A stretch of DNA of 43,537 bases from a virus. The notes under the pieces are model-generated. The model did not search any database. It saw only the letters and a list, made by a program, of their open reading frames with translations, and was not told where the DNA came from. The position numbers and the translations under genes are program-made. Positions 1 to 34,833 of the stretch are shown in pieces (position 1 is the first letter of the stretch; every line of letters starts with the position of its first letter). The DNA is taken from positions 1 to 43,537 of the IMG/VR virus record IMGVR_UViG_3300008113_000264; one strand, 5' to 3'.

Positions 1-72
1 GTGTAATAGTATTTGTTGGTGTAATAGTATTTGTTGGTGTAATAGTATTTGTTGGTGTAATAGTATTTGTTG
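1..72 (-). repeat. Perfect 18-base tandem repeat, four copies
   Basis: Four identical 18-base units that on the minus strand encode TPTNTI repeats, continuing into looser TPT-coding repeats up to about 560. Confidence 0.95.
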
Positions 73-1633
73 GGGTTTCTGTTGGTGTTGGAGTGCTGGT
101 AGGTGTTGGAGTGTTGGTAGGAGTTTCAACTTGAGTAGATGTTGGAGTATTTGTTGGAGTTTCCGTAGGCGTTGGTGTAATAGTATTCGTAGGAGTATTT
201 GTTGGAGTTTCTGTAGGTGTTTGAGTTGGAGTTTCTGTAGGCGTGATAGTATTTGTTGGTGTTTGTGTTATTGTTTGTGTTATTGTTTGTGTTGGTGTTT
301 TAGTTGGAGTTTGTGTTTTAGTTGGTGTTTTAGTTTGTGTAGGGGTTTTAGTTAAAGTTTTAGTTGGGGTGTTGGTAGTTGTATTAGTTGGGGTGTTAGT
401 AGGGGTTTCAGTATTTGTTGGCGTAGGTGTATTAGTAGGGGTTTCAGTATTTGTTGGCGTAGGTGTATTAGTTGACGTATTGGTATTAGTAGGTGTAATT
501 GTATTTGTTGGTGTATTTGTTGGTGTTTTCGTATTTGTTGGAGTAGGTGTTGGTGATGGACAAATATTAACATCATTACATTCAATACAACCGTCAACCC
601 AGTAATTGTAATATACTGGTTTAGTATTATCCCAAGTTTTAGTTGGTGTTGATGTTAATGATATGGCAACTACCTGATAACAAATTCCGTCAGTACCAAC
701 CACAATGTAACCTCTATCACCATCAATATCAGGTGAATAGATTGTCGGTAATTTCATAATCCCAATACCAAATCCGGTAGAACAACAACTAATTACATCA
801 AAGAATGAAAAGTTGGTTGTTGGTGTTACAGTTGGAGTATTAGTTGATGTTACAGTATTAGTTGGAGTATTGGTTGGTGTTTCTGTAAGTGTTGGAGTGG
901 TTGTAGACGTTGGAGTTGGAGTTGGTAATACTGAGTTTGAGAAATCATAAGCATAACCCGACATATTACAATTGAAAGGTGTTGCAAATGGGGTTGGTGT
1001 TGGAGTATTAGTTGTGGTATTAGTTGGTGTTACAGTGTTTGTTGGTGTGTTTGTTGGTGTGTTGGTAGGAGTTTCAGTTAGAGTAGGTGTTGAAGTTTTA
1101 GTTGGCGTATTTGTTGGTGTATTTGTAGATGTTTGTGTCGGAGTATTTGTTGGTGTGGTGGTTGGTGTCTTAGTTAAAGTATTTGTTGGTGTATTTGTGG
1201 GAGTATTCGTTGATGTTTGTGTTGGAGTATTTGTTATTGTATTTGTAGGTGTATTTGTTGAAGTTTTTGTAGGTGTGTTAGTAGGTGTATTTGTTGAAGT
1301 TTTTGTCGGCGTGTTAGTTGACGTATTTGTAGGTGTAATAGTATTTGTAGGAGTGTTAGTAGGTGTTTTTGTAGGTGTAATAGTGTTTGTCGGTGTGTTT
1401 GTCGGTGTTTGAGTTTTTGTTGGTGTATTCGTAGGTGTAATAGTGTTTGTCGGTGTGTTAGTTGGTGTGTTTGTTGAAGTTATTGTATTAGTTGGAGTCT
1501 TTGTATTAGTCGGAGTGTTAGTTGGTGTTTTTGTATTAGTCGGAGTTTGAGTAGGTGTCGGACTAGGACATGGGTGTTGTGAATTACAAGTAATACAACC
1601 TGTTGATTGGTCTAAATCCACATAAACATTATT
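1..1633 (-). CDS. Thr-Pro-repeat surface/tail-fibre-like protein, downstream segment, cut by window edge
   Basis: This frame is open from the window edge to about position 1633 and lies +1 relative to the 772-aa protein that starts at 3950. It has no convincing start codon, so it is probably the continuation of that protein after a frame change. It holds long Thr-Pro-Thr linkers and two folded-looking modules. One (about 561-830) begins with a Cys-Cys pair (DVISCC), carries GICYQV and ends in [12 protein letters not shown]. The other (about 921-1003) contains [11 protein letters not shown] third module just inside the frame ends [17 protein letters not shown]. The role is inferred to be an extended virion surface or receptor-binding fibre in which Cys-rich domains are spaced by stiff Pro/Thr linkers. 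Enzymatic activity is not suggested by anything visible. The C-terminus lies outside the window. Confidence 0.6.
921..1003 (-). repeat. Near-identical duplicate of 2161-2243 ([10 protein letters not shown] module)
   Basis: About 80 bases shared with 2161-2243 with only a handful of differences, encoding the same [19 protein letters not shown] module. Confidence 0.9.
985..1561 (-). repeat. TPT-coding repeat tract
   Basis: Degenerate 12- to 24-base units encoding TPTN/TPTK-type linkers. Confidence 0.9.
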
Positions 1634-3950
1634 AGGATTTCCAATATCCGATACTGTTATCACAACATGAGATAACACCAAACATAATATATGGTGTTGT
1701 TGGTGTAACGGTTTGAGTTGGAGTTTTAGTTGGGGTAATTGTATTCGTTGGAGTATTAGTTGGGGTGATTGTATTAGTTGGGGTCTTAGTCGGAGTAATA
1801 GTATTGGTTGGCGTATTAGTTGGAGTATTGGTTGAAGTAATAGTATTAGTCGGAGTATTAGTTGAGGTTATAGTATTTGTTGGAGTGTTTGTTGCGGTGT
1901 TTGTCGGAGTTTTAGTTGGTGTATTTGTTGGTGTATTTGTAGATGTTTGAGTTGGTGTTGAAGTTTTAGTATTTGTTGGAGTTATGGTATTTGTTGGTGT
2001 ATTTGTTGGTGTGGTAGTAGGTGTCTTAGTTAAAGTATTTGTTGGGGTATTTGTCGGTGTGTTTGTTGATGTTTTCGTTATAGTTTGGGTTGGAGTGTTT
2101 GTCGGTGTGTTTGTTGAGGTGTTAGTTGGTGTTGAGGTTTGAGTTGTTGTTGGTGTTGGGGTTGGTAAAACTGAGTTTGAGAAATCATAAGCATAACCTG
2201 ACATATTACAATTGAAAGGTGTTGCAAACGGTGTTGGTGTTGGTGTTTGGGTTGGAGTATTCGTATTAGTAGGTGTAGGTGTAGGTGTTGAAGTATTTGT
2301 CGGAGTACTTTTAGGAGTTCCTGTTGGGGTTACAGTATTTGTTGATGTGATAGTGTTGGTCGGCGTAATTGTATTTGTTGGTGTAATCGTATTTGTTGGA
2401 GTATTTGTTGGAGTTTGTGTTTGTGTAGGTGTTTGAGTTTTAGTATTCGTAGGTGTGATAGTATTTGTTGGTGTTATTGTATTTGTAGGGGTAATTGTGT
2501 TTGTAGGTGTTTTTGTTGGAGTCTGAGTTTTTGTAGGCGTTTGTGTAGACGTTTGTGTAATAGTTTGAGTAGGTGTTTGTGTAATAGTTTGAGTAGGTGT
2601 TTTAGTTGGTGTCTGTGTTGATGTATTTGTAGGTGTTTGAGTAGGTGTTTCAGTAGGTGTTTGAGTAGGTGTTTGTGTCGGTGTTTGAGTAGGAGTTTCA
2701 GTCGGTGTTTGAGTTGGAGTTTCGGTTGGCGTTTGAGTTGGAGTTTCGGTTGGCGTTTGAGTTGGAGTTTCGGTTGGCGTTTGAGTAGGTGTCTCTGTAG
2801 GTGTTTGGGTTGGAGTTTCTGTTGGTGTTTGGGTTGGAGTTTCTGTATTAGTAGGGGTTGGAGTTTGAGTTGACGTTTCTGTTGGTGTTTGAGTAGGTGT
2901 CTCTGTTGGTGTTGGTGTAGAAGTTTGCGTTGGGGTCTCTGTTGGTGTAATTGTGTTAGTCGGCGTAATTGTATTAGTTGGTGTTGGTGTAGAAGTCTCT
3001 GTAGGTGTTTGAGTAGGTGTTTCAGTAGGTGTTTGAGTAGGTGTTTCAGTTGGCGTTTGTGTTGGGGTTTGTGTAGGTGTTTCAGTTGGCGTCGGAGTTT
3101 GCGTAGGGGTTTGAGTAGATGTTTGCGTAGGTGTTTGAGTTGTTGTTGAGGTTGGTGTCGGTGTAACACATATATAATTTGGATTACGTATAAAACAATC
3201 GTTACATGTGTTACCACAATCATCCATTGATACTACGTTATTTGCAACGTATATTAATGGTGATGTTGTTGAAGCAATATTTGTTGCACAACCTGAGAAT
3301 CCTGAACTTTCAATGAAGTAAACCCCCGATAATGGTGATAGATTACCCGGTATTGAAGTTAATCTAAATTCAAGTAAAGGGTCACAACAACTTCTAAATG
3401 ATGCAACCACAGGTGGTAGTGTCGGTGTGACTGTAGGTGTTGGTGTAGGAGTTTTAGTTGGTTCAGGACAAGAACCATTAATACAAACTTGAGAAGTACT
3501 ATATGTTGTACCACCATCCGATATTGTAGGTCTTGAACCACACAAATATAATATTGTATTAGGACTTATTGTTGATTCAATATAAGAACCGTCACATTGG
3601 TACAAACTATATGTTAATGTTCTTGTAGGACTTTGGTTAATAAATTGAATACATTGACAATTGGATGGTGTTTGAGTTAAAGTGGGCGTTGTTGTTGGAG
3701 TTGGAGTTGGTGTTGGTGTTATTGAACACGGTAAATACAATATTTCCTCACACCCTTTTGAATCAGTAACTATTACAACAACTTCATTATCTAACGGTGT
3801 TCCAAAAAATTCAGGTACTTGAATTGTTAAAACAGGTGGAACTGAAACAACTCCTGTAAGAACGACTTGACAATACGATAATGTTTTATCGCAAATTGTG
3901 ATATCATACGGAGAATATCCCGTTAAACTTGTAATACTAATATAACTCAT
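1632..3950 (-). CDS. Thr-Pro-repeat surface/tail-fibre-like protein (772 aa to a premature stop)
   Basis: The N-terminal ~80 residues look like a small folded domain, possibly for virion attachment. It is followed by a Cys-rich module starting NCQCIQF, a short Pro-Thr linker and a second Cys module (SCCDPLLEF to [12 protein letters not shown]). A tract of some 300 residues made almost only of [11 protein letters not shown] and TPTN units follows, then a [10 protein letters not shown] module and another TPT tract. The frame stops soon after [14 protein letters not shown]. Comparison with the homologous module near 561-830 shows that the expected continuation is in the +1 frame, so the product is probably truncated or the sequence carries a lesion. 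The ATG at 3950 is preceded by TATTTAT 10 bases upstream and an A-rich stretch. Orientation and linkers match the next two genes. A fibre or adhesin role is inferred. Confidence 0.7.
1696..2160 (-). repeat. TPT-coding repeat tract
   Basis: Degenerate repeats encoding TPTN/TPTK linkers between the [10 protein letters not shown] module and the next Cys module. Confidence 0.9.
2161..2243 (-). repeat. Near-identical duplicate of 921-1003 ([10 protein letters not shown] module)
   Basis: Second copy of the module; see 921-1003. Confidence 0.9.
2225..3165 (-). repeat. Long TPT-coding repeat tract
   Basis: The longest tract, about 310 codons. It contains three perfect copies of a 24-base unit (2711-2782) encoding TPTETPTQ-type octads. 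Confidence 0.9.
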
Positions 3951-4051: not shown

Positions 4052-6316
4052 TTACAAACCGTAATTTGTTTTAGTTGTGTTGAAGTTTTGTAAGACTTGT
4101 CCGGAGGTTAATCCTACGTTATATATTTGAACCCCACCTAATCTATAAGAACAAGAGGTTGTTGTTGTGGTCAAATCCGTAGTGGATGGGTATCCGAAAT
4201 TGAAATACATTGGTAAACTACTACCATCATTGTATGGTGTTTCTCTTGAATAAGTTGATATTCCAACCATTGCTCCGTTTACATACGCGGTAAGTGTGGT
4301 TCCATTATATGTCCAACCAACATAATACCAATTATTCAGAGAGTGAGTAATAGATGATGTTATTGGTGCTGGACCATTGATAGTGTATGGCCAAACTCCG
4401 AATAAAAATCTATCACTAGAATCCCTTTGAATTTGAACATCAAACCAACCAAAGTCAGGTGCAAGAGACCCTTGTTCAGAATAAATCACACCATTTGATG
4501 TCGGATAAATCCAAAGAAAAATAGATTGAGTAGTACCTGTGTTAACAGGTGATAAATATGGGTTGATGTCAGAAGTGTTTATGTATTCGGACGAACCACC
4601 CTCAATAGTTAAATATTTTGGTGATGCGTTAGTGTATGAAATAACCCCTGTCATTTCTCCGTTTATATTCCCTTGTAAGTCAGTTATTACTGACCCCGTA
4701 CCATTATAAGAACTATTATTTTGAATATCCCAATTCATTATTAAACCTGAACTAACTAATTCTGTTGTTGGTGTAACTGTTGGTGTTATTGTAGGAGTCA
4801 CTGTTGGTGTTGGAGTTTCGGTATTAGTTGGTGTGGGGGTTGGGGTTTCAGTTGGAGTATTAGTCGGAGTTTCAGTTGGAGTATTAGTCGGAGTTTCAGT
4901 TGGAGTATTAGTAGGTGTTTCAGTAGGAGTTTGTGTTGGAGTATTAGTTGGAGTTTGTGTTGGAGTATTAGTTGGAGTATTAGTTGGAGTTTCAGAATTT
5001 GTTGGTGTTGGTGTTACATCAAAAATATCTGTACTAGTTGGGGTAAGTGTTGGTGTATTTGTTGGTGTATTTGTTGGTGTATTTGTTGGTGTAGGTTGTG
5101 GAGGTTTTGAATATGGACAATTTATATCAAACATCATTTGACAGATACTATTTGATAAAAATTCAGTAATTTCATTATCTGAAAATACGTATTGATTATC
5201 TACCGACTCAAATATTAAATTTTGTAAATTATTTGTATATTGACTATAACTTAAACCAAATGGTGATTTAAATTTAGATAATAATACCATACCAAAAAAC
5301 ATATTTTGTCCGGCAATTATGTAACTTGAATCTAACTGTGATGGGTCATCTATCTTTCTTTTGTCAATAAGTTTAACAATATTACTACCCCACGTATCAC
5401 CCGTAATAGTAAACCATACATAAGTGATTGATGGTGATAAACCTAATGTGTTGTAATTATTATATGAATGCCATTCACCACCAATACCGTTACCACAACC
5501 ATAAATACCGTCAGATATTGATGCTGAACGTAATCCAAAACCTGGAAATCCTGATTCACCCGGTGAAAATTGGGTAACTGTTGAACCAAATCTCATCAAA
5601 CTTAATTGTGGCCAAACAACTCTAGGTCCAACAAAATAATTGTTACCTATTGTACCATAAACTTTTGGTCCGCCCTCATTAATTAAAATGTAGTTACCAC
5701 CATTAAACATATTAAAACCACCGTTGGTAATACTAATAACACCAGGAATGTATGCGTATAAATAATGATTATTTAACTGTGAATAATATGTATACGAGTG
5801 TAAATTCCACCAATTATAATATTGGTCAATACACATTAATTGAGTTGGTGTTGGTGTTACTGTACTTGTAGTTGTTTGAGTTGGTGTTTGAGTTGGTGTT
5901 TGGGTCGGAGTTGTTGTATTAGTAGGTGTTTGGGTTGGTGTCTGAGTAGGTGTTTGGGTTGGTGTTGTTGTATTAGTAGGTGTTATTGTTGGTGTGATTA
6001 AACAAGGATTTTGTGTTATTGTTACTGTTGGTGTTGTTGTCGGAGTTGTGGTTGGTGTTTTAGTTGGTGTTGTTGTCGGAGTTGTGGTTGGTGTTGGTCT
6101 GTAAACATTTAGTATATTAGGACAATTATCACCAACAACTAATATTGTATAAGTACCATAAACCTCACGTGGAGGTGTTAAATTTGATGGGTCAAATTCA
6201 AATGGTAAGGTAATTTGACCTAAATTAATAACAACGTTATCATTATCAGGTTTAAATAATACCTCAGATAATTCACCATCATAATTTATACTTGATATAA
6301 TAATTTTTTCACTCAT
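4052..6316 (-). CDS. Thr-Pro-linked virion surface protein with C-terminal LamG-like domain
   Basis: 754 aa. Residues 1-72 form a small N-terminal domain comparable in position to that of the 772-aa neighbour. Residues 74-160 are a TPT linker. Residues 160 to about 430 form a Tyr/Asn/Gly-rich globular region of unknown fold that ends near [12 protein letters not shown] second TPT linker precedes residues 519-754. This last part resembles the concanavalin-like LamG/Laminin_G_3 fold: [10 protein letters not shown] at its start, an SIFLWIYP strand, then [20 protein letters not shown] and a closing LGGVQIYN strand. Such domains usually bind glycans or act as fibre tips. The start lies 2 bases downstream of the TAA of the 1031-aa gene, so the two are probably translated together. 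Receptor binding is inferred, not shown. Confidence 0.75.
4763..5095 (-). repeat. TPT-coding repeat tract
   Basis: Linker preceding the LamG domain. It includes two perfect 24-base units (4847-4894) and a partial third. Confidence 0.9.
5837..6097 (-). repeat. TPT-coding repeat tract
   Basis: Linker after the N-terminal domain of the LamG protein. Confidence 0.9.
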
Positions 6317-6318
6317 AC

Positions 6319-9300
6319 TTAAAAGTTATTTTCAACGGCAAGACATATTTCACCACTCATTGATATCAATTTTGACATATCAGCAAATGATATAAACGCT
6401 CTACCTTGTTTACCCCAACTTCTTCCCCAACTATTTTTAATTCTAAATTGTTGTTTAACTAAATCAACCCCATTTATAACATATGCGTGTCCACCAACAA
6501 TTCTACCCGTCGCTTTGATAAGTCCATTAGTGTCAGGGTAAAACATATTTTGATACCAATATGTACCCACAACAACAGGTCCTAAATTATAAACAGTGTT
6601 AATTAATGTGTTAACATCAAATGCCCAATAGTATGATTTAATTTTACCTGTATTTAATAAATACTTAGCACCCGCTCTGACCGAAGTTCCCGCATAATTT
6701 TCACCTGGCCACTCATCAATTTTTTGAGCTTCATTATAGATTAATGTTGGATTAATTATTGGTGGAGTATTATCGTGAGTAATCGGTCCGTCTTCAATCC
6801 AATGTGCCCAAGCATATCCAACACATTGTGGTGTATTACCTTGATTACCCCACCATTCTTCATCACCCCAATATTTAAATGTGGGTAAACCTGAAGTTGA
6901 TGGTGTTGGTGTTATACTTTTTGTTGGTGTAGGTGTATTAGGTGGATTTTTTGTTGGTGTAGGTGTTGGTATAGGTTTTTTAGTTTTAGATGGTGTAGGA
7001 GTTGGTCTTGGTCTTATAAAAATTTTTGTCACTATAGGTTTTGCTTGAAATGTAAAATGGTCATTTATTAAAAATTTATCATCCCTAACGTCTCTATGAT
7101 ATAATCTACCTAATAATGTTACGTTAGGTTGTAATTGACCGTTTTGTAATACATATGTAAAATCGTTAGGTAAACAAACTTCAGTTGAACAATCGGGACA
7201 ATCAGGATTATACATCCTAAATGTATTTTTTAATAAATTAAAGTTATGTTTTACTTCGGGTGCTGATAATGGTGACACATACATTCTAAATTGTGATATA
7301 CCACCCTCAAATGTTCCAGCAAAATTTTCGTTAATTAATATATTAGTATTTAACTCGCTAAATGTAGTGCCCGATAAATCTTTACTTGATAAACACTCAG
7401 GGTCTTGAATATATGGACCGTTAGGTAATGTTGTTGATGAAAAAGTTAAACTTTCTCTTAACCCTTGAGTACCACCACCCCAAGAAACATTAAATGGAAC
7501 ACCTATTTGTTTTTCTTTATCGGTATTTAAACCTCTTGGAATTACCTCCTCAAAATTTTCAATTACATCAAATAACTTTCCATTTATGTAAATTTTTAAT
7601 CTACCATTTCTATAATTTTTTTCTTTTAACCATTCTTCATTTAATTTAACAAGTTCAACCTCATCAGGTTTTGGAGAACCTGTCTGAGTATATGGAACAG
7701 TAATTAATGATATTGAATTGTGTGATAGTGATTCTAATGTGTGTTTCTCAGTAATATCACCTAAACCACCGCGATAATATAAATCACAATCATTTAACCA
7801 AGTATATCTCTCCCATACGGCATTGAATTGAAACCAATGTTCTTCATTTAAAAATGTTGGATTTAAAGTTTGACATCTATCATAAATCCCTTTTTCGGTA
7901 CAATATGTTGTTACAGTATATCCTGTTTGATATGTAATACCTGTTTTCACACAATTATTAAGTACATCATCAGGACCTACCTGAGACCCATCCAACAATG
8001 ATACGGTAACACAATCACCCGTTAATGTTAACACTCTAACACCAATTTTAGGATTTTTAGGGTCACCACATAATTTAAATGCTAAACAATTTGATAACGA
8101 ATCATCCAAAGGGTTGGACTCGCAAGTATTTTCAATTGATGATTTTGTTATTGTTTCACCAATTAATGTTGTTGTTGTCGTTGTAGTATAATTGGTTGTT
8201 GTCGTTGTAGTATAATTGGTTGTTGTTGTTGTAGTATAATTGGTTGTTGTTGTTGTAGTATAATTGGTTGTTGTTGTTGTGGTGTAATTAGTTGTTGTTA
8301 ATGTTAAATAATTAATTGTTGTTGTTGTGGTATTATAAACTGTACAAGTGTGTATTTTACATTCCCAACCACATGTGTCATATGTTTCAGGTGTACAACC
8401 ACAACCTGAACAAGTCGTAGAACCTGTTTTACAAGTTGGTTCGGTTGAAGGTTTATTACAAATATCACAACCATAGTTTACATGTGGGTCGTGAATGTTA
8501 TTTATAGACCTAGGCGGGTAAACATATATACATCTACTATCAGTATGGGCGGTTGTACAACAAGAACATGTTTGTAGTTTTTCTTGTAACTCAGTTGTTA
8601 CTCTGGTGTACCCTGTTAATCCACTTGGTGAACCATCAGCATGGTGGTAAAATTTATTTTCGGCTCTAGTACCTATATAGAAAAATATGTTTTTATTGTT
8701 AGGGTAAATAACATTTAATGTTGTTTCATCATCCTCCGGTTCATATTCGTCAAATAATCTAGGTTTTAATAAAACTTCAACTGACCATCCTTTATTCATC
8801 CTTTGAGGAAAAATATCATAATCATATCCAAATAATTTATAAAATCCCTGATAAAATCCACCATATAATTCGTGGTAATTCCCTTCATACGGACTATTTT
8901 TACTAACTACTTCATATAAAACAGTTTTATCAAATCCTGAAAATCTAATGTTATTTGAGGTGTATCCCGTAACTTGAAATAATTTTAATCGTCTATCAAA
9001 GTGATATCTATCAAATTTTAACTCGTCATTAAAAAAACCATTTGTAACAGTAATTGATTCTCCTGTCATTGATGTTACAAGACCATTATCAATACCTGTT
9101 AAACCGACATCACATAAAGTTGATGATGAAAAACAAGTTTCAGTTGATGACGAATAGTAATTTTGAGAAACAAAAATATTATTAAAGTTATAATTTTTAT
9201 AATCTAAAGTTAATTTTTGAGACGTTAATGAGTTGTTAATATCAAAGTAAAAAGGTAATCTTTGACCGTAAGTTTGGGCAATAAGATATGGTGAGAATAC

Positions 9301-9414
9301 GACTTCTTGATTAAAGTCTTTCTCATCTGAAGTTAAAGACATATCGTGGGAATCTAAATTAAGTTTTACCCCCCAATTGTTCCCGTAATATTGATTAATA
9401 TTCTGACCTATCAT
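6319..9414 (-). CDS. Large virion protein: LamG-like region plus C-terminal papain-like (C1) cysteine protease
   Basis: 1031 aa. The N-terminal two-thirds look like a LamG-type beta-sandwich ([67 protein letters not shown]). It is split by a Cys-rich insert (about residues 280-355) and an Asn-Tyr/Thr repeat tract. A short Pro-Thr linker (about 800-840) leads to residues 843-1031, which match the C1A papain family. Visible are the oxyanion Gln863 next to catalytic Cys864 ([11 protein letters not shown]), His976 ([11 protein letters not shown]) and Asn994 ([11 protein letters not shown]). There is no obvious propeptide. The ATG at 9414 is preceded by TATTTAT at 10 bases. The gene is first in a minus-strand unit with the LamG and Thr-Pro genes. 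A tail or fibre-borne protease acting on host surface proteins or on its own maturation is inference. The protease assignment itself is strong. Confidence 0.85.
8171..8290 (-). repeat. 24-base tandem repeat encoding NYTTTTTT
   Basis: Five 24-base units. Units 1-2 are identical, units 3-4 are identical, and unit 5 is diverged. Confidence 0.95.
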
Positions 9415-9424
9415 CTTTTTTATG

Positions 9425-9431
9425 ATAAATA
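9425..9431 (-). promoter_or_regulatory. TATTTAT motif (late-promoter candidate)
   Basis: TATTTAT on the minus strand, 10 bases before the ATG of the papain-domain gene. Confidence 0.45.
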
Positions 9432-9444
9432 CTCTAAACCGAAG

Positions 9445-9451
9445 TATTTAT
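9445..9451 (+). promoter_or_regulatory. TATTTAT motif (late-promoter candidate)
   Basis: TATTTAT on the plus strand, 14 bases before the ATG at 9466. Together with the site at 9425 it forms a divergent pair, each pointing toward its own gene. Confidence 0.45.
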
Positions 9452-9465
9452 TAAATAAAAATGAT

Positions 9466-10314
9466 ATGATATCATATAATACAGAATATTTTGTTAATAA
9501 TTGTTACTTTTATTTAGAAGAAAAAGGTAACAAAGTGTCGTTGTATTATTCAGTAGAGGACACTTTAACTGAATCAAGAAAAAAACACGAAAAAGTAGAA
9601 TTTGAAAAAAAAGATGTTAATCAGATTAAGTCAGTTATTAAGAAAGTTTTAAACAATAAAAAGAAATACTCAAAGTCTGAAATAACAAAATTACTTAAAC
9701 CTAAAAAAACGTCAGGTGAAATTGATGAATTGGTGGATGGTGACGGTGTATTCAAGGGGTCTGACATTCCAATTATAAATCAAACATTAGCCCCTCGTAA
9801 AACATTAGATGTGACAATTAGGTCAACAAGAGGTGCGGTAGACCCTGCAAGGATTGGTTATCGTATGTATTGGAGAGAAAGTGATGAAGAACGTGATGAT
9901 ATAGTTTCAGAGATTGACTATGAAAAAGCGTTTGGACGTGAGGAAACAGAATTTCTTGATTATGACGACACTGTTGACACATTAGAGGATATGGGGGTTG
10001 ATAACGCTGAAGAACGTGCAGACCAATTTGGAAAATTACCGGGTGAAGAAGTTGAAACTGATGAGGACGGTGACCCTATTTTAAAACAACGTTTAGTTGA
10101 AAAAGATACGTTAGAGGAGGAACAGAAACAAAGAATGGTTAAAATGTTAGAAGATATTGTTGCAAAAAAATCTAAATCTAATTCTGACGTTATTAAAAAA
10201 GAAACACCTATTAGTAAAATTTTATTAAAAAATATTAAATCAATTAAGAAAATTGCTGATAAAGAAGGTATTAGTATTTCTCAACTAATTAAAGCTTTGA
10301 AAAACAATGAATAA
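9466..10314 (+). CDS. Unknown acidic/coiled phage protein
   Basis: 283 aa when started at the ATG at 9466. The frame is open further upstream to 9391, but that stretch overlaps the start of the divergent 1031-aa gene. The 9466 start also follows a TATTTAT motif by 14 bases, so it is preferred. The sequence is Lys/Glu/Asp-rich. It begins with a short region that resembles a beta hairpin (FYLEEKGNKVSLYYSVED), followed by helical stretches and a C-terminal Lys-rich helix containing ISISQLIKAL. I do not recognise a family. It overlaps the next gene by 8 bases, so it is the first gene of a five-gene unit. The position next to the fibre genes and the late-promoter-like motif suggest a virion or assembly role, with low certainty. 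Confidence 0.6.
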   Translation: MISYNTEYFVNNCYFYLEEKGNKVSLYYSVEDTLTESRKKHEKVEFEKKDVNQIKSVIKKVLNNKKKYSKSEITKLLKPKKTSGEIDELVDGDGVFKGSDIPIINQTLAPRKTLDVTIRSTRGAVDPARIGYRMYWRESDEERDDIVSEIDYEKAFGREETEFLDYDDTVDTLEDMGVDNAEERADQFGKLPGEEVETDEDGDPILKQRLVEKDTLEEEQKQRMVKMLEDIVAKKSKSNSDVIKKETPISKILLKNIKSIKKIADKEGISISQLIKALKNNE

Positions 10315-10774
10315 AGAACTTTACGGAAATATAATCCCATTACCTGAAAATGTTGTTAATTATTTACAACAATGTTTTGAAGCCGCTAGTGGTGACGAAT
10401 CGGTAGAAGGATATAAAAGAAATAAAGAATTACGAGAAAAAGGGGAAGTTAGTTATCAACAATTAAAACGAATGAAAAATTGGTTTGATAATTTCAACGG
10501 ACACGAGAATGATAAGCCGTATATTTTAAACGGTGGTCATTATGTAAAAAGTTGGGTAAATGATACTTTAACATCTATGAGGGATGGTAATAGATTAGGT
10601 AAAGAAATTAAATCTGTTGTTTTACCAAATCAATTTAACCAAGAACATCAGAAAGATGATTTAAGTAGTTTAAATAGACCAAGTAAATCTCACAACTCAA
10701 CAGTTGGTCAATATAATCTTGAAATAACTGAGAGTTTGAAACGAATAAACGATTTGATTAAAAAAATAATTTAA
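10307..10774 (+). CDS. Unknown phage protein (155 aa)
   Basis: Compact, mostly helical protein. It has a conserved-looking core: QLKRMKNWFDNFNG, then KPYILNGGHYVKSWVNDTL. The C-terminal helix EITESLKRINDLIKKII is amphipathic and resembles the C-terminal helix of the 219-aa protein at 29453-30112. No catalytic motif is evident and I cannot name the family. The start overlaps the end of the preceding gene by 8 bases. The next gene begins 2 bases after its stop, so it is part of a tightly coupled operon. It may be a minor virion protein, based only on context. Confidence 0.6.
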   Translation: MNKELYGNIIPLPENVVNYLQQCFEAASGDESVEGYKRNKELREKGEVSYQQLKRMKNWFDNFNGHENDKPYILNGGHYVKSWVNDTLTSMRDGNRLGKEIKSVVLPNQFNQEHQKDDLSSLNRPSKSHNSTVGQYNLEITESLKRINDLIKKII

Positions 10775-10776
10775 TT

Positions 10777-11073
10777 ATGCCAGTTAATGAACCTTTAAAT
10801 TTTGAACAACCAAAAAATAAATTGTCAGATATTGCTGAACAAGAAAGAAAAAAACTTTTACCTAAAAATGATTATGAGAAAGATGTGGACCAATATTCAT
10901 CAGTACACCCTGACGCATTAGCCACAGGAGATGCTCAAGGTAAAGGTACAGGTGGTGATTTGGATACTTATAATGATGGCGCGGGTGCTATCCAAGATAT
11001 TATTGAAAGAAAATCTGAAATTGTATTTAATCAATATAAATCAAACAATCCATATACTACACCAAGTGCGTAA
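10777..11073 (+). CDS. Unknown phage protein (98 aa)
   Basis: Small hydrophilic protein. A Gly/Asp-rich middle (GDAQGKGTGGDLDTYNDGAG) is probably flexible, and a C-terminal helix follows (AIQDIIERKSEIVF). There is no membrane segment or signal peptide. Its stop TAA and the ATG of the next gene overlap as TAATG, suggesting translational coupling. The function is unknown. The family is not recognised with confidence. Confidence 0.55.
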   Translation: MPVNEPLNFEQPKNKLSDIAEQERKKLLPKNDYEKDVDQYSSVHPDALATGDAQGKGTGGDLDTYNDGAGAIQDIIERKSEIVFNQYKSNNPYTTPSA

Positions 11074-11465
11074 TGAAACTTTACAATACATTTAAAAATC
11101 TTATTTTAGAAGTAGCGTCAGTTGATTCAATTGTTGATGCGATTAAAAATAAGAAAAAAATTGTCATCTATTATGATGGGGACGAACCTGGAGGTGGTGG
11201 TTTACGTGAAATAGAACCTGTTTGTTTTGGTTATAGTAAAGCGGATAACCCAATAGTAAGGGCTTGGGATTCTGAAGGTGCTTCACATACGGCTTATAAA
11301 GGTGAACAACCATTACCGGGATGGAGAATTTTTAGAGTTGATAAAATAATGTCTTTTAAAGACACGGGTGAAAATTTTACTGAAGTAAGACCTGGGTATA
11401 ACCCAAATGGTGATAAAAGTATGACTACCGTAATTATTAATTCGGTATTTGATAATTTAACTTAA
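11073..11465 (+). CDS. WYL-like domain protein (130 aa)
   Basis: The first ~20 residues (MKLYNTFKNLILEVAS) look like a separate amphipathic tag. Residues about 28-105 resemble the WYL/SH3-like beta-barrel of bacterial regulators: KIVIYYDG, LREIEPVCFGYSKADNPIVRA, then GWRIFRVDKI. These match the usual strand-turn pattern of (I/V)xIxY, RxIEPxxLG, xxxRAW and (F)RxDRI. The helix-turn-helix usually found before WYL in cellular regulators is absent, so this is a WYL-only protein. WYL domains bind nucleic acid or nucleotide ligands and regulate attached partners. What this one binds is unknown. It is coupled to the gene before by TAATG. The assignment rests on pattern recognition only. Confidence 0.5.
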   Translation: MKLYNTFKNLILEVASVDSIVDAIKNKKKIVIYYDGDEPGGGGLREIEPVCFGYSKADNPIVRAWDSEGASHTAYKGEQPLPGWRIFRVDKIMSFKDTGENFTEVRPGYNPNGDKSMTTVIINSVFDNLT

Positions 11466-11476
11466 TTTAAAAAAAT

Positions 11477-12097
11477 ATGACAAGCGAACAAGATTTAATG
11501 ATGAAATTGGTTACCGCTAAAAAAATTATGAACAAACATAATGAAATAGGTAGAGGAGGAATACCGGCTGAAAGACCATCATCACCTGTTGTTGAAGAGT
11601 ATTCAGCAACAAATTCAAGATACAATATTCCCCAAGAATATATGAATGAATCATTAACTATGGGACACACACAAAATGATGATATTAATTATCCGTTACT
11701 ATCTGAATCACATGTTACTCAAATGAAATCATCACAACCATTAACTAATGATAGAATATTATCCTCAAGGTTACCTGATGAAATCAAACAATTAATGATA
11801 GAACACCCAATATCTCAACCTTCAAACCCTTTGACTTCAGGACCAACAATTAGTGATGAGTTAGTGGAAAAAGCGTCAAGATTAATGGGAACTCAAAAAC
11901 CTAAATCACAACCTCAGTCTCAATCACAACCATCTAATGAAAGTTTAAAAGATATGATTCGTGAGGCGGTTAGAGATGTATTATCTGAGAACGGATTAAT
12001 TACCGAATCAGTTTCTAAATCTAATGATGTTTTTTCATTTAGAGTTGGTAAACATGTTTTTGAAGGTAAAGTTACTAAAGTAAAAAAAGTTAGTTAA
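11477..12097 (+). CDS. Unknown, probably disordered phage protein (206 aa)
   Basis: The sequence is rich in Ser, Pro, Gln and Asn and is likely disordered through its middle, including a KSQPQSQSQPSN linker. The ends look structured: an N-terminal helix (EQDLMMKLVTAKKIMNKH) and a C-terminal part with a helix ESLKDMIREAVRDVLSE followed by a small beta segment (FSFRVGKHVFEGKVTKV). The layout, a helix plus a short beta tail after a flexible linker, resembles minor core or scaffold-associated proteins, but no family is recognised. It is the last gene of the unit. A strong terminator begins 25 bases after its stop. Confidence 0.55.
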   Translation: MTSEQDLMMKLVTAKKIMNKHNEIGRGGIPAERPSSPVVEEYSATNSRYNIPQEYMNESLTMGHTQNDDINYPLLSESHVTQMKSSQPLTNDRILSSRLPDEIKQLMIEHPISQPSNPLTSGPTISDELVEKASRLMGTQKPKSQPQSQSQPSNESLKDMIREAVRDVLSENGLITESVSKSNDVFSFRVGKHVFEGKVTKVKKVS

Positions 12098-12122
12098 TTT
12101 TATAACTCACATATCTTAGTTT

Positions 12123-12148
12123 AACCCACCTAATTTGGTGGGTTTTTT
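12123..12148 (+). terminator. Rho-independent terminator
   Basis: Inverted repeat AACCCACC / GGTGGGTT with a six-base loop, followed by a run of six T after the stem core. It ends the 9466-12097 operon and separates it from the glycan and nucleotide operon. Confidence 0.85.
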
Positions 12149-12159
12149 ATTTTTCTAAA

Positions 12160-12188
12160 TTGACTTATTAAAATACAACGTATATACT
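12160..12188 (+). promoter_or_regulatory. Sigma70-like promoter
   Basis: TTGACT and TATACT are separated by 17 bases in the gap between the terminator and the glycosyltransferase gene at 12239. This matches the general bacterial -35/-10 layout, and the 141-base gap holds nothing else obvious. The host is probably a Bacteroidota species, whose main promoters differ (TTTG and TAnnTTTG), so it may be read poorly or may be an early phage promoter adapted from elsewhere. The resulting leader would be about 45 bases. Confidence 0.4.
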
Positions 12189-12238
12189 TTAATTACAAAT
12201 TGGTTTATTAACCGATATTAAATAATTTAAATAAAATT

Positions 12239-13450
12239 ATGAGTAAAATTAAAGTATTAGTAGTACCATCAGACAAAACAGGTGTTGGGAAATTTAGGTC
12301 GGTTGACCCTCACACGTATTTACAGGATATGTATCCTGATGATTTTCACGTAGAAATTGATTACGAACCAAAAATAAATGATTTAAACTATTGGAAACAA
12401 TACCAAATAGTTCATGCTCATAGGTCTATTGGTCACGATTATGATTCAGTACCATTATTGATTAATAAATTAAAACAAATGGGTATTATAGTAATTGTTG
12501 ATATTGATGACTATTGGTTACCAACAAAAGAACATCCTATCCATCAAATAATTGTGCAAAATAAGTTACATACTAAAATTGTTAATAACCTAAAAGCCGC
12601 TGATTATGTAACAACAACTACTAAATTTTTTGCCGATGAAATCAGTAAGTTTAATAAAAATGTTATAGTGTTACCTAACGCGATTAATCCAAATGAACCT
12701 CAATTTAATCAACCAACATTTAAGTCTGATAGGATTAGAATTGGGTGGTTAGGTGGTTCATCACACGAGCATGATTTAAAGTTATTAGAAGGTTTTGTGG
12801 GTAAAAATGTATCAATTAATGATAAAGTTAGATACGTTTTATGTGGTTTTGATACTAGAGGTACGATAACTGAAATCAATAAAGTGACAGGTGAACAAAA
12901 ACAAAGACCGATTAAACCTAACGAAACTGTTTGGTCAAGATACGAAAAAATATTCACTAATAACTATAAAATTCTCAGTGAAGACTACAAAAAATATTTG
13001 TTAGAGTTTGTTGAGAAACCTTATGAATCTGATGAGGATATCTCATATGAAAGAGTATGGACAAAACCAATTAATTCATATGCCGCTAACTATTCAAAAT
13101 TTGATATATCTTTAGCACCAATTAAAGACCATATCTTTAACAGAATGAAATCTCAACTTAAAGTTATTGAAGCGGGATTTTATAAGAAAGCATTAATCGC
13201 CTCAGAAGTTGGTCCCTACACAATTGATTTAAAACATTGTTTAAAGAATGGTGAATTTGTTGATGGTAACGCAATGTTAGTTGATAAATCACGTAATGGT
13301 GATTGGGCGTACTACATCAAAAAATTAGTTAACAACCCTAATCTAATTGAGGATATGGGTAATAGATTATATGAAACGGTTAAGGACGTTTATAGTTTAG
13401 AAACCGTAACTAAAACAAGAGCTGAATTTTACAAATCTTTAATTAAATAA
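12239..13450 (+). CDS. GT-B-fold glycosyltransferase
   Basis: 403 aa, a normal length for a GT-B enzyme. The N-terminal Rossmann half carries VLVVPSDKTGVGKFR and VDIDDYW (residues 87-93), a segment typical of phage and bacterial GT4-like proteins. The linker to the second half runs VIVLPNAIN, then RIRIGWLGGSSHEHDL (about 166-180). The C-terminal half has KSQLKVIEAGFYKKALIAS, the position of the acceptor/donor-binding EX7E-type segment. It would transfer a sugar from a nucleotide donor. The acceptor could be a virion protein, phage DNA or a host surface glycan. The gene is first in a long plus-strand operon and is followed after 2 bases by the exonuclease gene. Fold assignment is firm; donor and acceptor are unknown. 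Confidence 0.8.
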   Translation: MSKIKVLVVPSDKTGVGKFRSVDPHTYLQDMYPDDFHVEIDYEPKINDLNYWKQYQIVHAHRSIGHDYDSVPLLINKLKQMGIIVIVDIDDYWLPTKEHPIHQIIVQNKLHTKIVNNLKAADYVTTTTKFFADEISKFNKNVIVLPNAINPNEPQFNQPTFKSDRIRIGWLGGSSHEHDLKLLEGFVGKNVSINDKVRYVLCGFDTRGTITEINKVTGEQKQRPIKPNETVWSRYEKIFTNNYKILSEDYKKYLLEFVEKPYESDEDISYERVWTKPINSYAANYSKFDISLAPIKDHIFNRMKSQLKVIEAGFYKKALIASEVGPYTIDLKHCLKNGEFVDGNAMLVDKSRNGDWAYYIKKLVNNPNLIEDMGNRLYETVKDVYSLETVTKTRAEFYKSLIK

Positions 13451-13452
13451 AA

Positions 13453-14184
13453 ATGATAAAAATACCATTAACTAAGATTTTATTCTTAGATATTGAAACC
13501 GTTGGGATTGAAAAAGATTACGACACTTGTCTTGAAAAAAGACCTGAGATTGCAAATCAATTTATGAAGTATTATGATTGGTTTCAGAAACGATTTCCTG
13601 AAGACCATATTAATCCACCAAACAATATTGATGAAAGAACTAAAAGGATTAATCAGGTTTTTAGTAAAAGAACCGCATTAGTTCCTGAGTTCGCTAAAAT
13701 TGTTTGTGTTAACGTTCAGTTCGTAACTGATAATGGTGATGTTAAATCACAATCATTTTCAGGTGATGATGAAAAAGAACTATTACGTAATTGTAAAAAA
13801 GTCTTAGATAAATGTTATAAATTGGATTTTCATATCTGTGGTCATAATCTAAAGAATTTTGACATTCCGATGTTGGCAAAACGAATGATAATCAATGGCA
13901 TCTCACCTTCAATTATGTTACCATCATACGATACTAAACCTTGGGAAGTTAAAGCGATTGATACTAAAGATATTTGGCAATACGGTGCCTACACTTCAAT
14001 TGGGTCATTAGATTTGTTATGTACATCATTAGGAGTTCCTTCACCAAAAGAAGGTGACGTGACGGGTGATAAAGTACACACCGCTTATTGGAATGAGGGT
14101 AAATTAAAAGAAATCACTGAATACTGTGAACGTGATGTTAAAGTATTAATTGATATAATCATAAAACTTAAAGAATTGGAATAA
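13453..14184 (+). CDS. PolB-like 3'-5' exonuclease (DnaQ superfamily)
   Basis: All three exonuclease motifs are visible. Exo I is LFLDIET (Asp13, Glu15), Exo II is GHNLKNFDIPML (Asp137) and Exo III is EYCERDVKVL (Tyr224 to Asp228). The layout and 243-aa length fit the stand-alone predicted PolB-like 3'-5' exonuclease family (DNA_pol_B_exo2) rather than a full polymerase. It should remove nucleotides from DNA 3' ends with two metal ions and may serve proofreading, repair or DNA processing in replication. Its ATG lies 2 bases after the preceding stop, and its own stop overlaps the dUTPase start. Confidence 0.88.
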   Translation: MIKIPLTKILFLDIETVGIEKDYDTCLEKRPEIANQFMKYYDWFQKRFPEDHINPPNNIDERTKRINQVFSKRTALVPEFAKIVCVNVQFVTDNGDVKSQSFSGDDEKELLRNCKKVLDKCYKLDFHICGHNLKNFDIPMLAKRMIINGISPSIMLPSYDTKPWEVKAIDTKDIWQYGAYTSIGSLDLLCTSLGVPSPKEGDVTGDKVHTAYWNEGKLKEITEYCERDVKVLIDIIIKLKELE

Positions 14185-14774
14185 TGAAAAACGAATTTTT
14201 AAACAACGAAAATTTTAAAGACCTATTTGATTCTGAATTATTAAATGATGATGATTTGGATTATGATAAGATACTAGAAGAGACTGGTCTTGATTTAAAA
14301 GAATTGGAAAGAGAATTTAATGATTATAGTCCTAAACTACCTTTGGAATATAAAAAACTTTCCGATAATTCAGTAGAACCTACCTATAATTATGAAACCG
14401 ATTCAGGATTTGATTTATACTCAACTGTAGAGATTACAATACCCCCTTTTGGTAGAGTTTTAGTACCAACAGGGTTATCATTTAATATTCCTGATGGGTA
14501 TGAGATACAAGTTAGAAGTAAAAGTGGATTAGCAATTAATCAAGGTTTGATGTGTTTAAATTCGCCAGGAACTGTTGATAGCGGATATGTAGGTGAAGTT
14601 AAGGTAATTATTTTCAACACTAACAATGATGAGGTTGTAATCAATAAAGGTATGAAAGTTGCTCAAGCGGTTTTATGCCCCGTAGTTAATGGTAAATGGG
14701 TTGATTTAGTAAAAACTGATAAAGAATTCTCTAAAGATAGAGGAGATAAAGGATTTGGTTCAACAGGAATATAA
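14184..14774 (+). CDS. dut: dUTPase (dUTP diphosphatase), trimeric type
   Basis: The C-terminal ~135 residues carry the five conserved motifs of trimeric dUTPases in order: SGFDLYS (74-80), RSKSGLA (111-117), GTVDSGYVGEV (129-139, with catalytic Asp132 and Tyr135), GMKVAQAVLCPV, and RGDKGFGSTG at the C-terminus for active-site closure. It hydrolyses dUTP to dUMP and pyrophosphate, keeping uracil out of phage DNA and supplying dUMP. An acidic N-terminal extension of about 55 residues (rich in Asp, Glu, Asn and Leu) is not part of the enzyme fold and is longer than in usual family members. Its role is unknown. It overlaps the exonuclease gene by 1 base. Confidence 0.93.
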   Translation: MKNEFLNNENFKDLFDSELLNDDDLDYDKILEETGLDLKELEREFNDYSPKLPLEYKKLSDNSVEPTYNYETDSGFDLYSTVEITIPPFGRVLVPTGLSFNIPDGYEIQVRSKSGLAINQGLMCLNSPGTVDSGYVGEVKVIIFNTNNDEVVINKGMKVAQAVLCPVVNGKWVDLVKTDKEFSKDRGDKGFGSTGI

Positions 14775-14775
14775 G

Positions 14776-15528
14776 ATGAATAAAATAATATTATCCGTAG
14801 GTGCTGATGATAGATATCTTCAAAACCCACATTTAAAAAACTATTTCAAATCAATTAGTCAAAACTCAAACTTTGACGAAAATGCGTTAGTTTATTTAGG
14901 TAATAATGAAGTTCAACTTGATTATGAAAACATTAAAGTATTCAAAGTTAATCCTGAATCAATAGTTAAGAAAAATAGTAATAATTGTATTCAACATGGT
15001 GAATTTTTAAATTCTAAAAACTTTGATAACTATTCTGATTCTGACATAATTGTGTTTACTGATGGTGATATGACATTACAACGAAATTTAAATGAGAATG
15101 AAATTAAAATCTTACGAAATTTAAATGATGATGACGTATACATTGGTTACAATCAATCACCAAATGACACATTAGTTAATGAATATTTCAGGTTACAACC
15201 AACTCAACATATACCTGAAATGTTTAATAATATTGGTAAAATTAAAGTTTATAACACCGGTGTTGTTGGTATGAATAAAAAAACTTGGAATAAACTTAAA
15301 AATAGATATATTGAATTATATGACTCAATTAATCAATTATTTAGACATTACGCTAAACAACAATGGTTAATCTGTTATATTATTGGAACTGAAAAATATA
15401 ATATAATTGAAATGGGTTATGAAGTTCATAATCATACACATTATCCCTCTCCAATTGGAACAACTAACGAAAATGGTTTAGTTAAATACAATGGTGAAAC
15501 GGTGTTATTTAAACACAGATGGTTTTAA
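14776..15528 (+). CDS. GT-A-fold glycosyltransferase-like protein
   Basis: 250 aa from the ATG at 14776, just after the dUTPase stop. A longer in-frame start at 14755 would overlap dut and is less likely. The sequence begins with a Rossmann-like strand (KIILSVGADDRY) and carries DIIVFTDGDMTLQ with a DxD metal and nucleotide-sugar motif at residues 96-98. The downstream segment KVYNTGVVGMNKKTWNKL is typical of GT-A enzymes that position the acceptor. It is probably a nucleotide-sugar transferase of the viral glycan cassette. The next frame opens within its last codons and the methyltransferase starts 10 bases after its stop. Donor and acceptor cannot be read from the sequence. Confidence 0.65.
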   Translation: MNKIILSVGADDRYLQNPHLKNYFKSISQNSNFDENALVYLGNNEVQLDYENIKVFKVNPESIVKKNSNNCIQHGEFLNSKNFDNYSDSDIIVFTDGDMTLQRNLNENEIKILRNLNDDDVYIGYNQSPNDTLVNEYFRLQPTQHIPEMFNNIGKIKVYNTGVVGMNKKTWNKLKNRYIELYDSINQLFRHYAKQQWLICYIIGTEKYNIIEMGYEVHNHTHYPSPIGTTNENGLVKYNGETVLFKHRWF

Positions 15529-15538
15529 AAATAAATTT

Positions 15539-16204
15539 ATGGAAAATTTACTAGCATTAATAAAAAATTTAGATATTAAAAAAATTGACGAATCTGAATT
15601 AGAAAATTTTTTACCTAATTTAGGTATGAATAATGAAAATTTAAATGAAATGCCAAAACATTTAAGTAAATATTATGGTAAAGGGTTAAAGTTTTGGCAA
15701 TACCCAAATCAATTCAGTAAATATTTAAAATATTTGACTAATAAAAATATAAATTCATATCTTGAGATTGGTTGTCGATGGGGAGGTACATTCATTATAA
15801 CTTCAGAATTTTTAAAATTGAGTAATAGTGATGTGAAATTATTTTGTTGTGATTTAATACCAAAATCTGATGTTTTAACCGAATATTCTAATCATCAAGA
15901 ATATGTTTTTATAAGAACAAGTAGTTTTAAGTTAGATAAAAGTATGATACCTCACAATATTGATTTAATATTAATTGATGGGGACCATACTTATAATGGT
16001 GTTAAAAACGACTTTCAAGTATCTAAACAATTTAACCCTAAGTACGTTGTGTTTCACGATATTAAAAGTTCAGTGTGTCCCGGTGTCGTTAAATTCTGGA
16101 ATGAAATAAAACAAGATTATCCCCATTATGAATTTATAGACCAATATGACAGTGTTAATGGTGATTTCTTAGGGATTGGTGTTATTGAATTGAATAATGA
16201 ATAA
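15539..16204 (+). CDS. Class I SAM-dependent methyltransferase (Methyltransf_24/CmcI-like)
   Basis: 222 aa from the ATG at 15539. The frame is open back to 15491, but this overlaps the preceding gene. Motif I, which binds SAM, is YLEIGCRWGGT (74-84). An acidic strand end follows at LFCCDL, and the characteristic LILIDGDHTYNGVKND (143-158) and VVFHDI segments match the Methyltransf_24 family. Members often methylate sugars or small hydroxyl or amino groups and are frequent in capsule and phage glycan clusters. The setting between a glycosyltransferase and UDP-galactopyranose mutase supports sugar O-methylation, which remains an inference. Its end overlaps the mutase start by 8 bases. Confidence 0.82.
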   Translation: MENLLALIKNLDIKKIDESELENFLPNLGMNNENLNEMPKHLSKYYGKGLKFWQYPNQFSKYLKYLTNKNINSYLEIGCRWGGTFIITSEFLKLSNSDVKLFCCDLIPKSDVLTEYSNHQEYVFIRTSSFKLDKSMIPHNIDLILIDGDHTYNGVKNDFQVSKQFNPKYVVFHDIKSSVCPGVVKFWNEIKQDYPHYEFIDQYDSVNGDFLGIGVIELNNE

Positions 16205-17288
16205 ATACGATTATTTAATTGTTGGGTCAGGATTATTTGGGTCTATATGTGCTCGAGAATTAACCGATTTAGGCCTTAAATGTTTAGTCGTTGAAAAACG
16301 AGAACATATTGGTGGTAATTGTTATACTAAAAAAATTGAAGGTATTGATGTTCATGTTTACGGAGCACACATCTTTCATACTTCAAATAAAGAAACTTGG
16401 GATTATGTTAATAGATTCGTGGAGTTTAATAATTACAGACATCACGTTATTGGTAATTATAAAAACACTTTATATTCATTACCATTTAATATGTTCACGT
16501 TTAATAAACTTTGGGGTGTTAACACACCTGAAGAGGCTAAAAATAAAATTGATAGTCAAAAGTTTGAAGGTGTACCCACAAATTTAGAAGAACAAGCCTT
16601 ATCTATTGTGGGTGAGGATGTTTATAATAAACTAATAAAAGGGTATACTGAAAAACAATGGATGAAATCCCCCAAAGAATTACCATCATCAATAATCAAA
16701 CGATTACCTGTTAGATTCACATTTGATAATAATTATTTTTTTGACACATATCAGGGAATCCCTAAAAATGGTTATACTGAATTATTTGAGAAGTTATTAG
16801 ATAATATTGAAGTTAAACTTAATACTGACTTTTTTGATGACGTTGATTACTATAAGTCAATATCATCACATATAATATATACAGGACCAATTGATAGATA
16901 TTTTAATTATTCGTTAGGTAATTTGGAATATAGACCATTGAGATTTGAAACCGAAATTGTTGACACCGAAAATTATCAAGGACATTCGGTTATCAATTTT
17001 ACCGATATTGATGTACCATATACTAGAATAATTGAACATAAACATTTTAATGTTTCCGAATCAAAAAAAACGGTCATTACTAAAGAATACCCAATAGAAT
17101 GGGATATCAATCAAGAACCTTATTATCCGATAAACGATAAAGAAAATCAGTTACTATACGAAAAATATAAACAATTAAGTTTAAAAGAAACTAATGTATT
17201 TTTTGGTGGTAGACTTGCAGAATATAAATATTATGATATGAATCAAGTGGTTGACTCGGCACTTGAGTTTATTCATAACATTTCATAA
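16197..17288 (+). CDS. glf: UDP-galactopyranose mutase
   Basis: 363 aa, the normal length for bacterial enzymes. The FAD Rossmann motif is LIVGSGLFGSICARELTDLG, followed by VVEKREHIGGNCYT. The family signature VHVYGAHIFHTSN comes next, then YSLPFNMFTFNKLWG, GYTEKQWMKSPKELP and the C-terminal GGRLAEYKYYDMNQVVDSAL that closes on FAD. The enzyme interconverts UDP-galactopyranose and UDP-galactofuranose in the cytoplasm using reduced FAD. UDP-Galf is then used by galactofuranosyltransferases, so one or more neighbouring glycosyltransferases may be Galf-specific. No truncation or missing motif is apparent. Confidence 0.95.
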   Translation: MNKYDYLIVGSGLFGSICARELTDLGLKCLVVEKREHIGGNCYTKKIEGIDVHVYGAHIFHTSNKETWDYVNRFVEFNNYRHHVIGNYKNTLYSLPFNMFTFNKLWGVNTPEEAKNKIDSQKFEGVPTNLEEQALSIVGEDVYNKLIKGYTEKQWMKSPKELPSSIIKRLPVRFTFDNNYFFDTYQGIPKNGYTELFEKLLDNIEVKLNTDFFDDVDYYKSISSHIIYTGPIDRYFNYSLGNLEYRPLRFETEIVDTENYQGHSVINFTDIDVPYTRIIEHKHFNVSESKKTVITKEYPIEWDINQEPYYPINDKENQLLYEKYKQLSLKETNVFFGGRLAEYKYYDMNQVVDSALEFIHNIS

Positions 17289-17296
17289 ATTTAAGT

Positions 17297-34110: not shown

Positions 34111-34833
34111 TTATTTTCCCAAATAATCGGACAATCTTTTCATTAAGTCAAGGGATTTATTACCCGATTCACCAACATGTCTGTCAACCGACATTCTTTT
34201 TTCTTCCTCAAGGTTTTCCTCATACATATGTTTATCATCTTTATTTAAGAATAAATAAGCACCTGGTGTTGACGGTGAAGATACTAAGTCAAAACAAATT
34301 AACTCAAAGTCATCTTGTACTTCGTTTTGTTCACCAACTTTTTTAAGTGAACCAACACCTCTTGATGATATACCTAACGTAACACCTTGTCTTAAATAAT
34401 TTGCAGCCATATCTCCTTTAGTTGATACAATACCTCTTTCGTGGAAACCTGGACTAGTTAACAATTTAAGTTTACCCATTAAAGTATTACCTTCCCACCA
34501 TACTTCAGTAATAAGGTGTGATACTCTATCTAAATCAATCAATGATGATTCGGGGTGATTTAATTCAGAAAGTGATGTTCCTTTCTCAATCATTTTTTTG
34601 TAGTTGTCCGCTTCACGTTTTAAAATACGTTCAGGATATACACGACCATTTCTGTTGGGTGTATTATATTTTTGTAGAACTGCATAAAATTCAAACGGTT
34701 TAGAGTGGTCTAAGAAATTATTAGACTCTAAAATATATGAATTGTGTCCTGTTTTTGGTGAAATGAAACCTGCATCGTATTCAATTAAAATACCTTTGCC
34801 GGTCTCATTTGGATTTAAAATTCGTAAACTCAT
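34111..34833 (-). CDS. Prohead core protease (T4 gp21-like, peptidase family S77)
   Basis: 240 aa. The family pattern is clear. RNGRVYPERIL near residue 61 is followed by SELNHPESSLIDLDRVSH with catalytic His93, LMGKLKLLTSPG, and TLGISSRGVGSL with the nucleophile at Ser156 or Ser157. The acidic member is probably in ELICFDLVSSPS (Asp182). It cleaves the scaffold, capsid and other core proteins during prohead maturation, normally after its own activation. Its place between portal-region genes and the scaffold gene is as in T4. A TATTTAT motif lies 15 bases before the ATG. Confidence 0.92.
   Translation of the reverse strand: MSLRILNPNETGKGILIEYDAGFISPKTGHNSYILESNNFLDHSKPFEFYAVLQKYNTPNRNGRVYPERILKREADNYKKMIEKGTSLSELNHPESSLIDLDRVSHLITEVWWEGNTLMGKLKLLTSPGFHERGIVSTKGDMAANYLRQGVTLGISSRGVGSLKKVGEQNEVQDDFELICFDLVSSPSTPGAYLFLNKDDKHMYEENLEEEKRMSVDRHVGESGNKSLDLMKRLSDYLGK

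Follow-up and report, generated by a model that had tools for sequence, protein, structure and literature searches.

What does a papain-type cysteine peptidase do at the end of a large phage protein, and what keeps it in check? This question is raised by a gene in virus record IMGVR_UViG_3300008113_000264. We analyzed the whole record (positions 1 to 43,537; 43,537 nt), which we refer to as the window. Its GC content is about 27 to 37%. The portal, major head protein, prohead protease, and terminase encoded in this 43.5-kb record matched T4-type families, and the source virus is a freshwater T4-like phage. Judged by its portal and head protein, the virus has Microcystis phage Mel-JY01 and Flavobacterium phage immuto among its closest cultured phages, although both are distant. 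Three large genes lie together on the minus strand (6319 to 9414, 4052 to 6316, and 1632 to 3950), and the first of these encodes the peptidase. The relevant features are as follows.

6319 to 9414, minus strand: peptidase gene, encoding carrier, strap, and C1A peptidase, 1031 aa (open reading frame with ATG start; full-length relatives aligned)
7138 to 9414, minus strand: carrier of the QNINQY type, residues 1 to 759, visually LamG-like toward the end (carrier kept in full-length relatives)
7054 to 7113, minus strand: strap, residues 768 to 787, candidate inhibitory segment preceding the core (conserved in relatives)
6889 to 7053, minus strand: Pro/Thr-rich linker between strap and core, residues 788 to 842 (sequence; pLDDT of about 50 or lower)
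6319 to 6888, minus strand: C1A peptidase core, residues 843 to 1031 plus stop (Pfam, PHROG, profile, AlphaFold2, and Foldseek)
6841 to 6843, 6823 to 6825, 6487 to 6489, and 6433 to 6435, minus strand: catalytic residues Q858, C864, H976, and N994 (read back from the sequence)
9424 to 9451, minus strand: upstream signal, TATTTAT 17 nt and inverted ATAAATA 37 nt before the ATG (also in many relatives)
4052 to 6316, minus strand: adjoining gene, 754 aa, Pro/Thr-rich, with a Laminin_G_3 domain at residues 575 to 699 (Pfam)
1632 to 3950, minus strand: Pro/Thr-rich gene, mostly repeat (open reading frame)
34111 to 34833: prohead protease (T4-type family match)

Identity and conservation of the C-terminal peptidase

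The initial annotation had placed a papain-like protease with a complete Gln-Cys-His-Asn set at the C terminus of the 1031-aa protein. Our results bear out both points. We found that Gln858, Cys864, His976, Asn994, and Trp996 follow one another in papain order. The spacing of 6 between Gln858 and Cys864 is the same as in papain, where these residues are Gln19 and Cys25. Pfam Peptidase_C1 (PF00112) matched at 21.8 bits against a cut-off of 20.7 (C-terminal half only), and it matched all 31 full-length relatives. The family phrog_16701, annotated as "peptidase," matched residues 846 to 1028 (E = 1.4e-49) and also matched peptidases on other carriers.

Structure prediction, which the initial annotation had proposed as a check, gave a papain fold. 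In an AlphaFold2 model built from 52 sequences, the pLDDT of the core was mostly 86 to 97. With the predicted core, the best solved match in Foldseek was xylellain of Xylella fastidiosa (3ois; 3.5e-10), with other papain-family enzymes next. An alignment-profile search also returned xylellain first (1.2e-12), followed by cathepsins. Xylellain is thus the best solved match by both profile and fold, and its catalytic residues come in the identical order, although it shares only 20 to 22% identity with the window peptidase. In line with a xylellain-type assignment, a segment of the D-x-R-D type precedes the core, as it does in bacterial C1 and stand-alone phage enzymes. Taken together, sequence comparison and modeling show that the C terminus is a C1A (papain) peptidase, probably of the xylellain type, with a predicted papain fold and an intact catalytic set.

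The four catalytic residues are kept in all 61 distinct complete viral relatives that we examined. The median pairwise dN/dS was about 0.19 in the core, compared with 0.34 in the strap; by this measure, the core is shown to be under purifying selection. Because of the 61/61 conservation and the low dN/dS of the core, an inactive relic is very unlikely, and we rejected that reading.

Phage C1A enzymes are not new, since short xylellain-type C1A peptidases acquired by Myoviridae and Siphoviridae were reported in 2023 (PMC10380794). In the open literature searched, we found no paper on a C1A protease fused to or displayed on a phage virion protein. The earlier description of such proteases as little described is partly right, as cultured phages carry stand-alone copies of the enzyme itself. 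The stand-alone members of phrog_16701 in Xanthomonas phage XacN1, Stenotrophomonas phage RAS14, and Streptomyces phage Muntaha share the strap and are 36 to 43% identical to the window peptidase. They are 214 to 240 aa long, lie at varied places in their genomes, and lack a carrier, whereas the window protein has one. What is new here is the display on what we infer to be a virion protein, the swapping of carriers, and the retained strap.

A conserved strap ahead of the core

The initial annotation saw no propeptide and expected another control of activity. We likewise found no Pfam match to an Inhibitor_I29 prodomain in the 1031-aa protein or its relatives. A conserved N-terminal strap had been overlooked, however, and this is a candidate control element. 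Its consensus, LGRxxxxDxRDxxYLI, is present in 61 of 61 complete relatives, stand-alone ones included. Arg9, Asp14, Arg16, Asp17, and Ile22 of the segment are invariant in the 52-sequence alignment. The distance from the strap Asp to the catalytic Cys ranges from 38 to 105 residues among the relatives.

The stand-alone phage enzymes start with a looser version of the strap (GRxxxHDxRSRxY in the actinophages), and bacterial C1 peptidases have LPDLPDxRDRxY at the same position. Because these enzymes share it, the strap belongs to the enzyme and not to the carrier. It is conserved even where a Pro/Thr-rich linker parts it from the core, as in the window and some relatives. In most relatives that linker is short or missing, and the trait changed at least three times on the tree.

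Leite et al. 2013 (FEBS Lett. 587:339; cited in PMC10380794) reportedly found that part of the xylellain N-terminal sequence blocks the active site. The strap occupies the position of this segment, which makes it the leading candidate for activity control. AlphaFold2 docked the strap with a pLDDT of only 62 to 66. By analogy with xylellain, the strap would inhibit the peptidase and keep the enzyme latent, a reading to which we give slightly better than an even chance. Xylellain differs as a cellular enzyme without a virion-protein fusion, and in the phage proteins a long Pro/Thr linker can lie between strap and core.

Carriers, expression, and probable virion location

The peptidase family is widespread in viral contigs, with 154 confirmed in one scan. 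We found that the strap and core are always C-terminal in the relatives and that the N-terminal part varies among at least five kinds of module or is missing. Most relatives carry the QNINQY/LamG-like module; others carry one of two Ig-like modules (MASTVV... and MPSVV...), FFIKK, IQRTDNK, one of two further modules, or nothing. In four loci (L002, L003, L005, and L120), an upstream open reading frame without a peptidase encodes residues 1 to 357 of the QNINQY protein; in a separate one, an Ig-like module precedes the LamG-like tail, the strap, and the peptidase. In L012, the second part of the QNINQY protein has its match in an open reading frame that lacks the peptidase, which a different gene encodes. 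In L111 and L116, a gene of its own, close to a stand-alone peptidase, encodes the FFIKK module.

On the core tree, we counted about 12 carrier changes without the incomplete row L102 (13 with it), where the minimum possible is 6. We checked 12 large related viral records, and every one had a single C1 match. The carrier changes and the single copy per virus therefore argue that the function is kept while the carrier changes and that the target is something other than the carrier itself. Such a pattern, one copy on many carriers, suggests that selection acts on the function independently of its carrier.

A search for a cellular source of close relatives among 84,980 genomes gave one match, a 3.1-kb contig in a bacterial bin (L124), which may itself be viral. 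The C1 peptidases of plasmids are distant from the window peptidase (23 to 33%).

The initial annotation had called the fusion partner a LamG virion protein. The fusion itself is confirmed, and relatives show it as well. The LamG part of the claim found no profile support. There was no Pfam match to LamG in the 1031-aa protein at E ≤ 1, and a Laminin G-like domain (PF13385) matched 2 of the 31 full-length relatives, with a best E of 0.044. A profile-profile comparison with the LamG domain of gene 4052 to 6316 aligned two short landmark motifs only, at 1 to 3% probability. By eye, the LamG-like parts of the carrier are NGK (around residue 610) and a 22-residue fragment (about residues 704 to 725). 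The full-length model was poor (mean pLDDT, 47), and a fold search with this model returned solely peptidases, and not LamG, among the 50 matches listed. A LamG domain in the carrier is thus unproven, and the clear LamG lies in gene 4052 to 6316.

The carrier also contains a Cys-rich block (8344 to 8568; residues 283 to 357, with CSCC, CDIC, CSGCGC, CGWEC, etc.) that is kept in relatives and is possibly metal binding or disulfide rich. A 24-base tandem repeat at 8171 to 8333 encodes a Thr-rich stretch of NYTTTTTT; relatives have other Pro/Thr- or Cys-rich stretches. The region from 1 to 3950 is marked by a strong GC skew and by very long Pro/Thr repeats that include many tandem arrays. Glycosyltransferase genes occur near Thr-rich proteins in the window (12239 to 13450), in L008 (10439 to 11686), and in L023 (9940 to 11184), and it is conceivable that they glycosylate the Pro/Thr linkers.

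The virion part of the claim fared better. The peptidase protein is probably located on the virion, judging from its gene context, the adhesin-like nature of the carriers, and an upstream signal common to morphogenesis genes. Gene 4052 to 6316 matched phrog_8510, "virion structural protein," via its LamG region. The N-terminal module of this gene is present in most of the relative loci, mostly directly downstream of the peptidase. LamG lectins are described on jumbo-phage tail fibers, and NlpC/P60 enzymes are described as tail associated (PMC7824862). The likeness of our locus to those fibers is the LamG of gene 4052 to 6316 beside the peptidase gene; that paper describes no peptidase with the lectins, and the LamG profile support is absent from the peptidase protein. 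None of the cultured phages were found to encode the LamG-like carrier, FFIKK, ASTVV, or gene 4052 to 6316 modules, so the virion location is one that we infer.

The upstream signal belongs to an inverted repeat (ATAAATAC...GTATTTAT, 9424 to 9451) between divergent genes that occurs at the same place in many relatives. The repeat resembles two opposed T4-type late promoters or a hairpin. Many relatives keep the TATTTAT signal with the inverted ATAAATAC ahead of it. Of the 36 window genes checked, 10 have TATTTAT in sense 12 to 48 nt before the start, against an expectation of about 1. The starts of these genes are 3950(−), 9414(−), 18857, 23173, 27275, 30112(−), 33732(−), 34833(−), 36322(−), and 38204(−), and the genes include the portal, the prohead protease, and the peptidase gene. 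From 10307 to 18805, none of the 10 genes checked had the signal. The peptidase gene has TATTTAT in common with morphogenesis genes, the portal and prohead protease genes among them. Late, virion-type expression can be argued on this basis; judging from the motif, the gene is likely expressed late, in the manner of morphogenesis genes.

Possible roles of the peptidase

We propose that the C1A protease is catalytically competent, acts in trans, and is displayed on a probable tail-fiber or decoration protein. The cassette would move as two parts, strap and catalytic core. The carrier would hold the enzyme on the virion surface, and the strap would most likely lie over the active-site cleft, with latency lasting until virion assembly or contact with the target. 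The most likely activity would be cutting of host envelope or extracellular-matrix proteins during adsorption. As a whole, the proposal of a virion-displayed, strap-latent, trans-acting xylellain-type protease is tentative, and we put it a little below an even chance. A host-surface protein as the target is about as tentative and falls just short of even. The fuller version, in which a self-inhibited, single-copy cassette moves among unrelated virion carriers and cuts host surface proteins to open the cell for entry, is rather unlikely. The carrier-less stand-alone relatives, several of them in lysis cassettes, weigh against display, since they need none. Hints of a virion location are the phrog_8510 match of gene 4052 to 6316, the recurrence of its N-terminal module, and the shared TATTTAT.

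These lysis cassettes suggest an alternative, that the peptidase is a lysis or cell-wall enzyme whose substrates are envelope proteins or peptides linked to the cell wall and which acts at entry, as a tail-associated lysin, or at progeny release. In Gordonia phages GMA2 and Lilbeanie, lysin and holin genes flank or adjoin the stand-alone relatives; in Arthrobacter phage Mufasa8, the relative follows lysin A. Endolysins and LysA proteins were among the weaker matches in a viral fold library. However, these three phages encode lysins in addition to the peptidase, and the copies in XacN1, RAS14, Muntaha, and Thonko are outside lysis cassettes. The NlpC/P60 and CHAP enzymes, which sometimes sit on phage tails, also have a papain-like fold (PMC7824862). 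Those are different families that act on peptidoglycan, and we found no Pfam match to either in the 1031-aa protein or its relatives; in both sequence and fold, the peptidase is nearest to C1A enzymes that cut proteins. We consider this alternative unlikely.

The peptidase could instead process phage proteins during assembly, cutting its own carrier or sister fibers, for example, in a self-release at the Pro/Thr-rich linker. It lies at the end of its carrier and frequently follows a long linker rich in Pro/Thr or in Thr, which would fit this, as would the adjoining genes for other long-linker proteins. However, neither the presence nor the length of the linker is conserved in relatives, the carrier is often swapped while the enzyme stays single copy, and stand-alone forms exist. 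For head processing, the phage has its own prohead protease (34111 to 34833). This role is thus quite unlikely. It is very improbable that the domain is no longer an enzyme and serves as a papain-fold cap for binding or fiber folding; conserved C-terminal caps are frequent on phage fibers and catalytically dead papain-fold proteins are known elsewhere, but none of the 61 complete relatives has lost Gln, Cys, His, or Asn, nor has any of the more distant stand-alone phage copies that we examined.

The preferred reading, a displayed protease acting on host surface proteins, would bear on how phages enter cells. Phage surface enzymes are mostly polysaccharide depolymerases and cell-wall lysins. 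If the proposal is true, protein layers (S-layer, matrix proteins, and pili) may also be degraded at entry by many freshwater T4-like viruses, and the enzyme would be a proteolytic counterpart of the capsule depolymerases. The single copy kept on changing carriers suggests a conserved job, which may be the cutting of host surface proteins. The strap raises a testable question, namely, how the protease stays quiet inside the producing cell. We found no gene for a cognate I42 (chagasin-type) inhibitor in the window or in 12 related viruses. On a Priestia megaterium plasmid (L126, 496 to 1690), a C1 peptidase gene is directly followed by a gene for an I42-type protease inhibitor.
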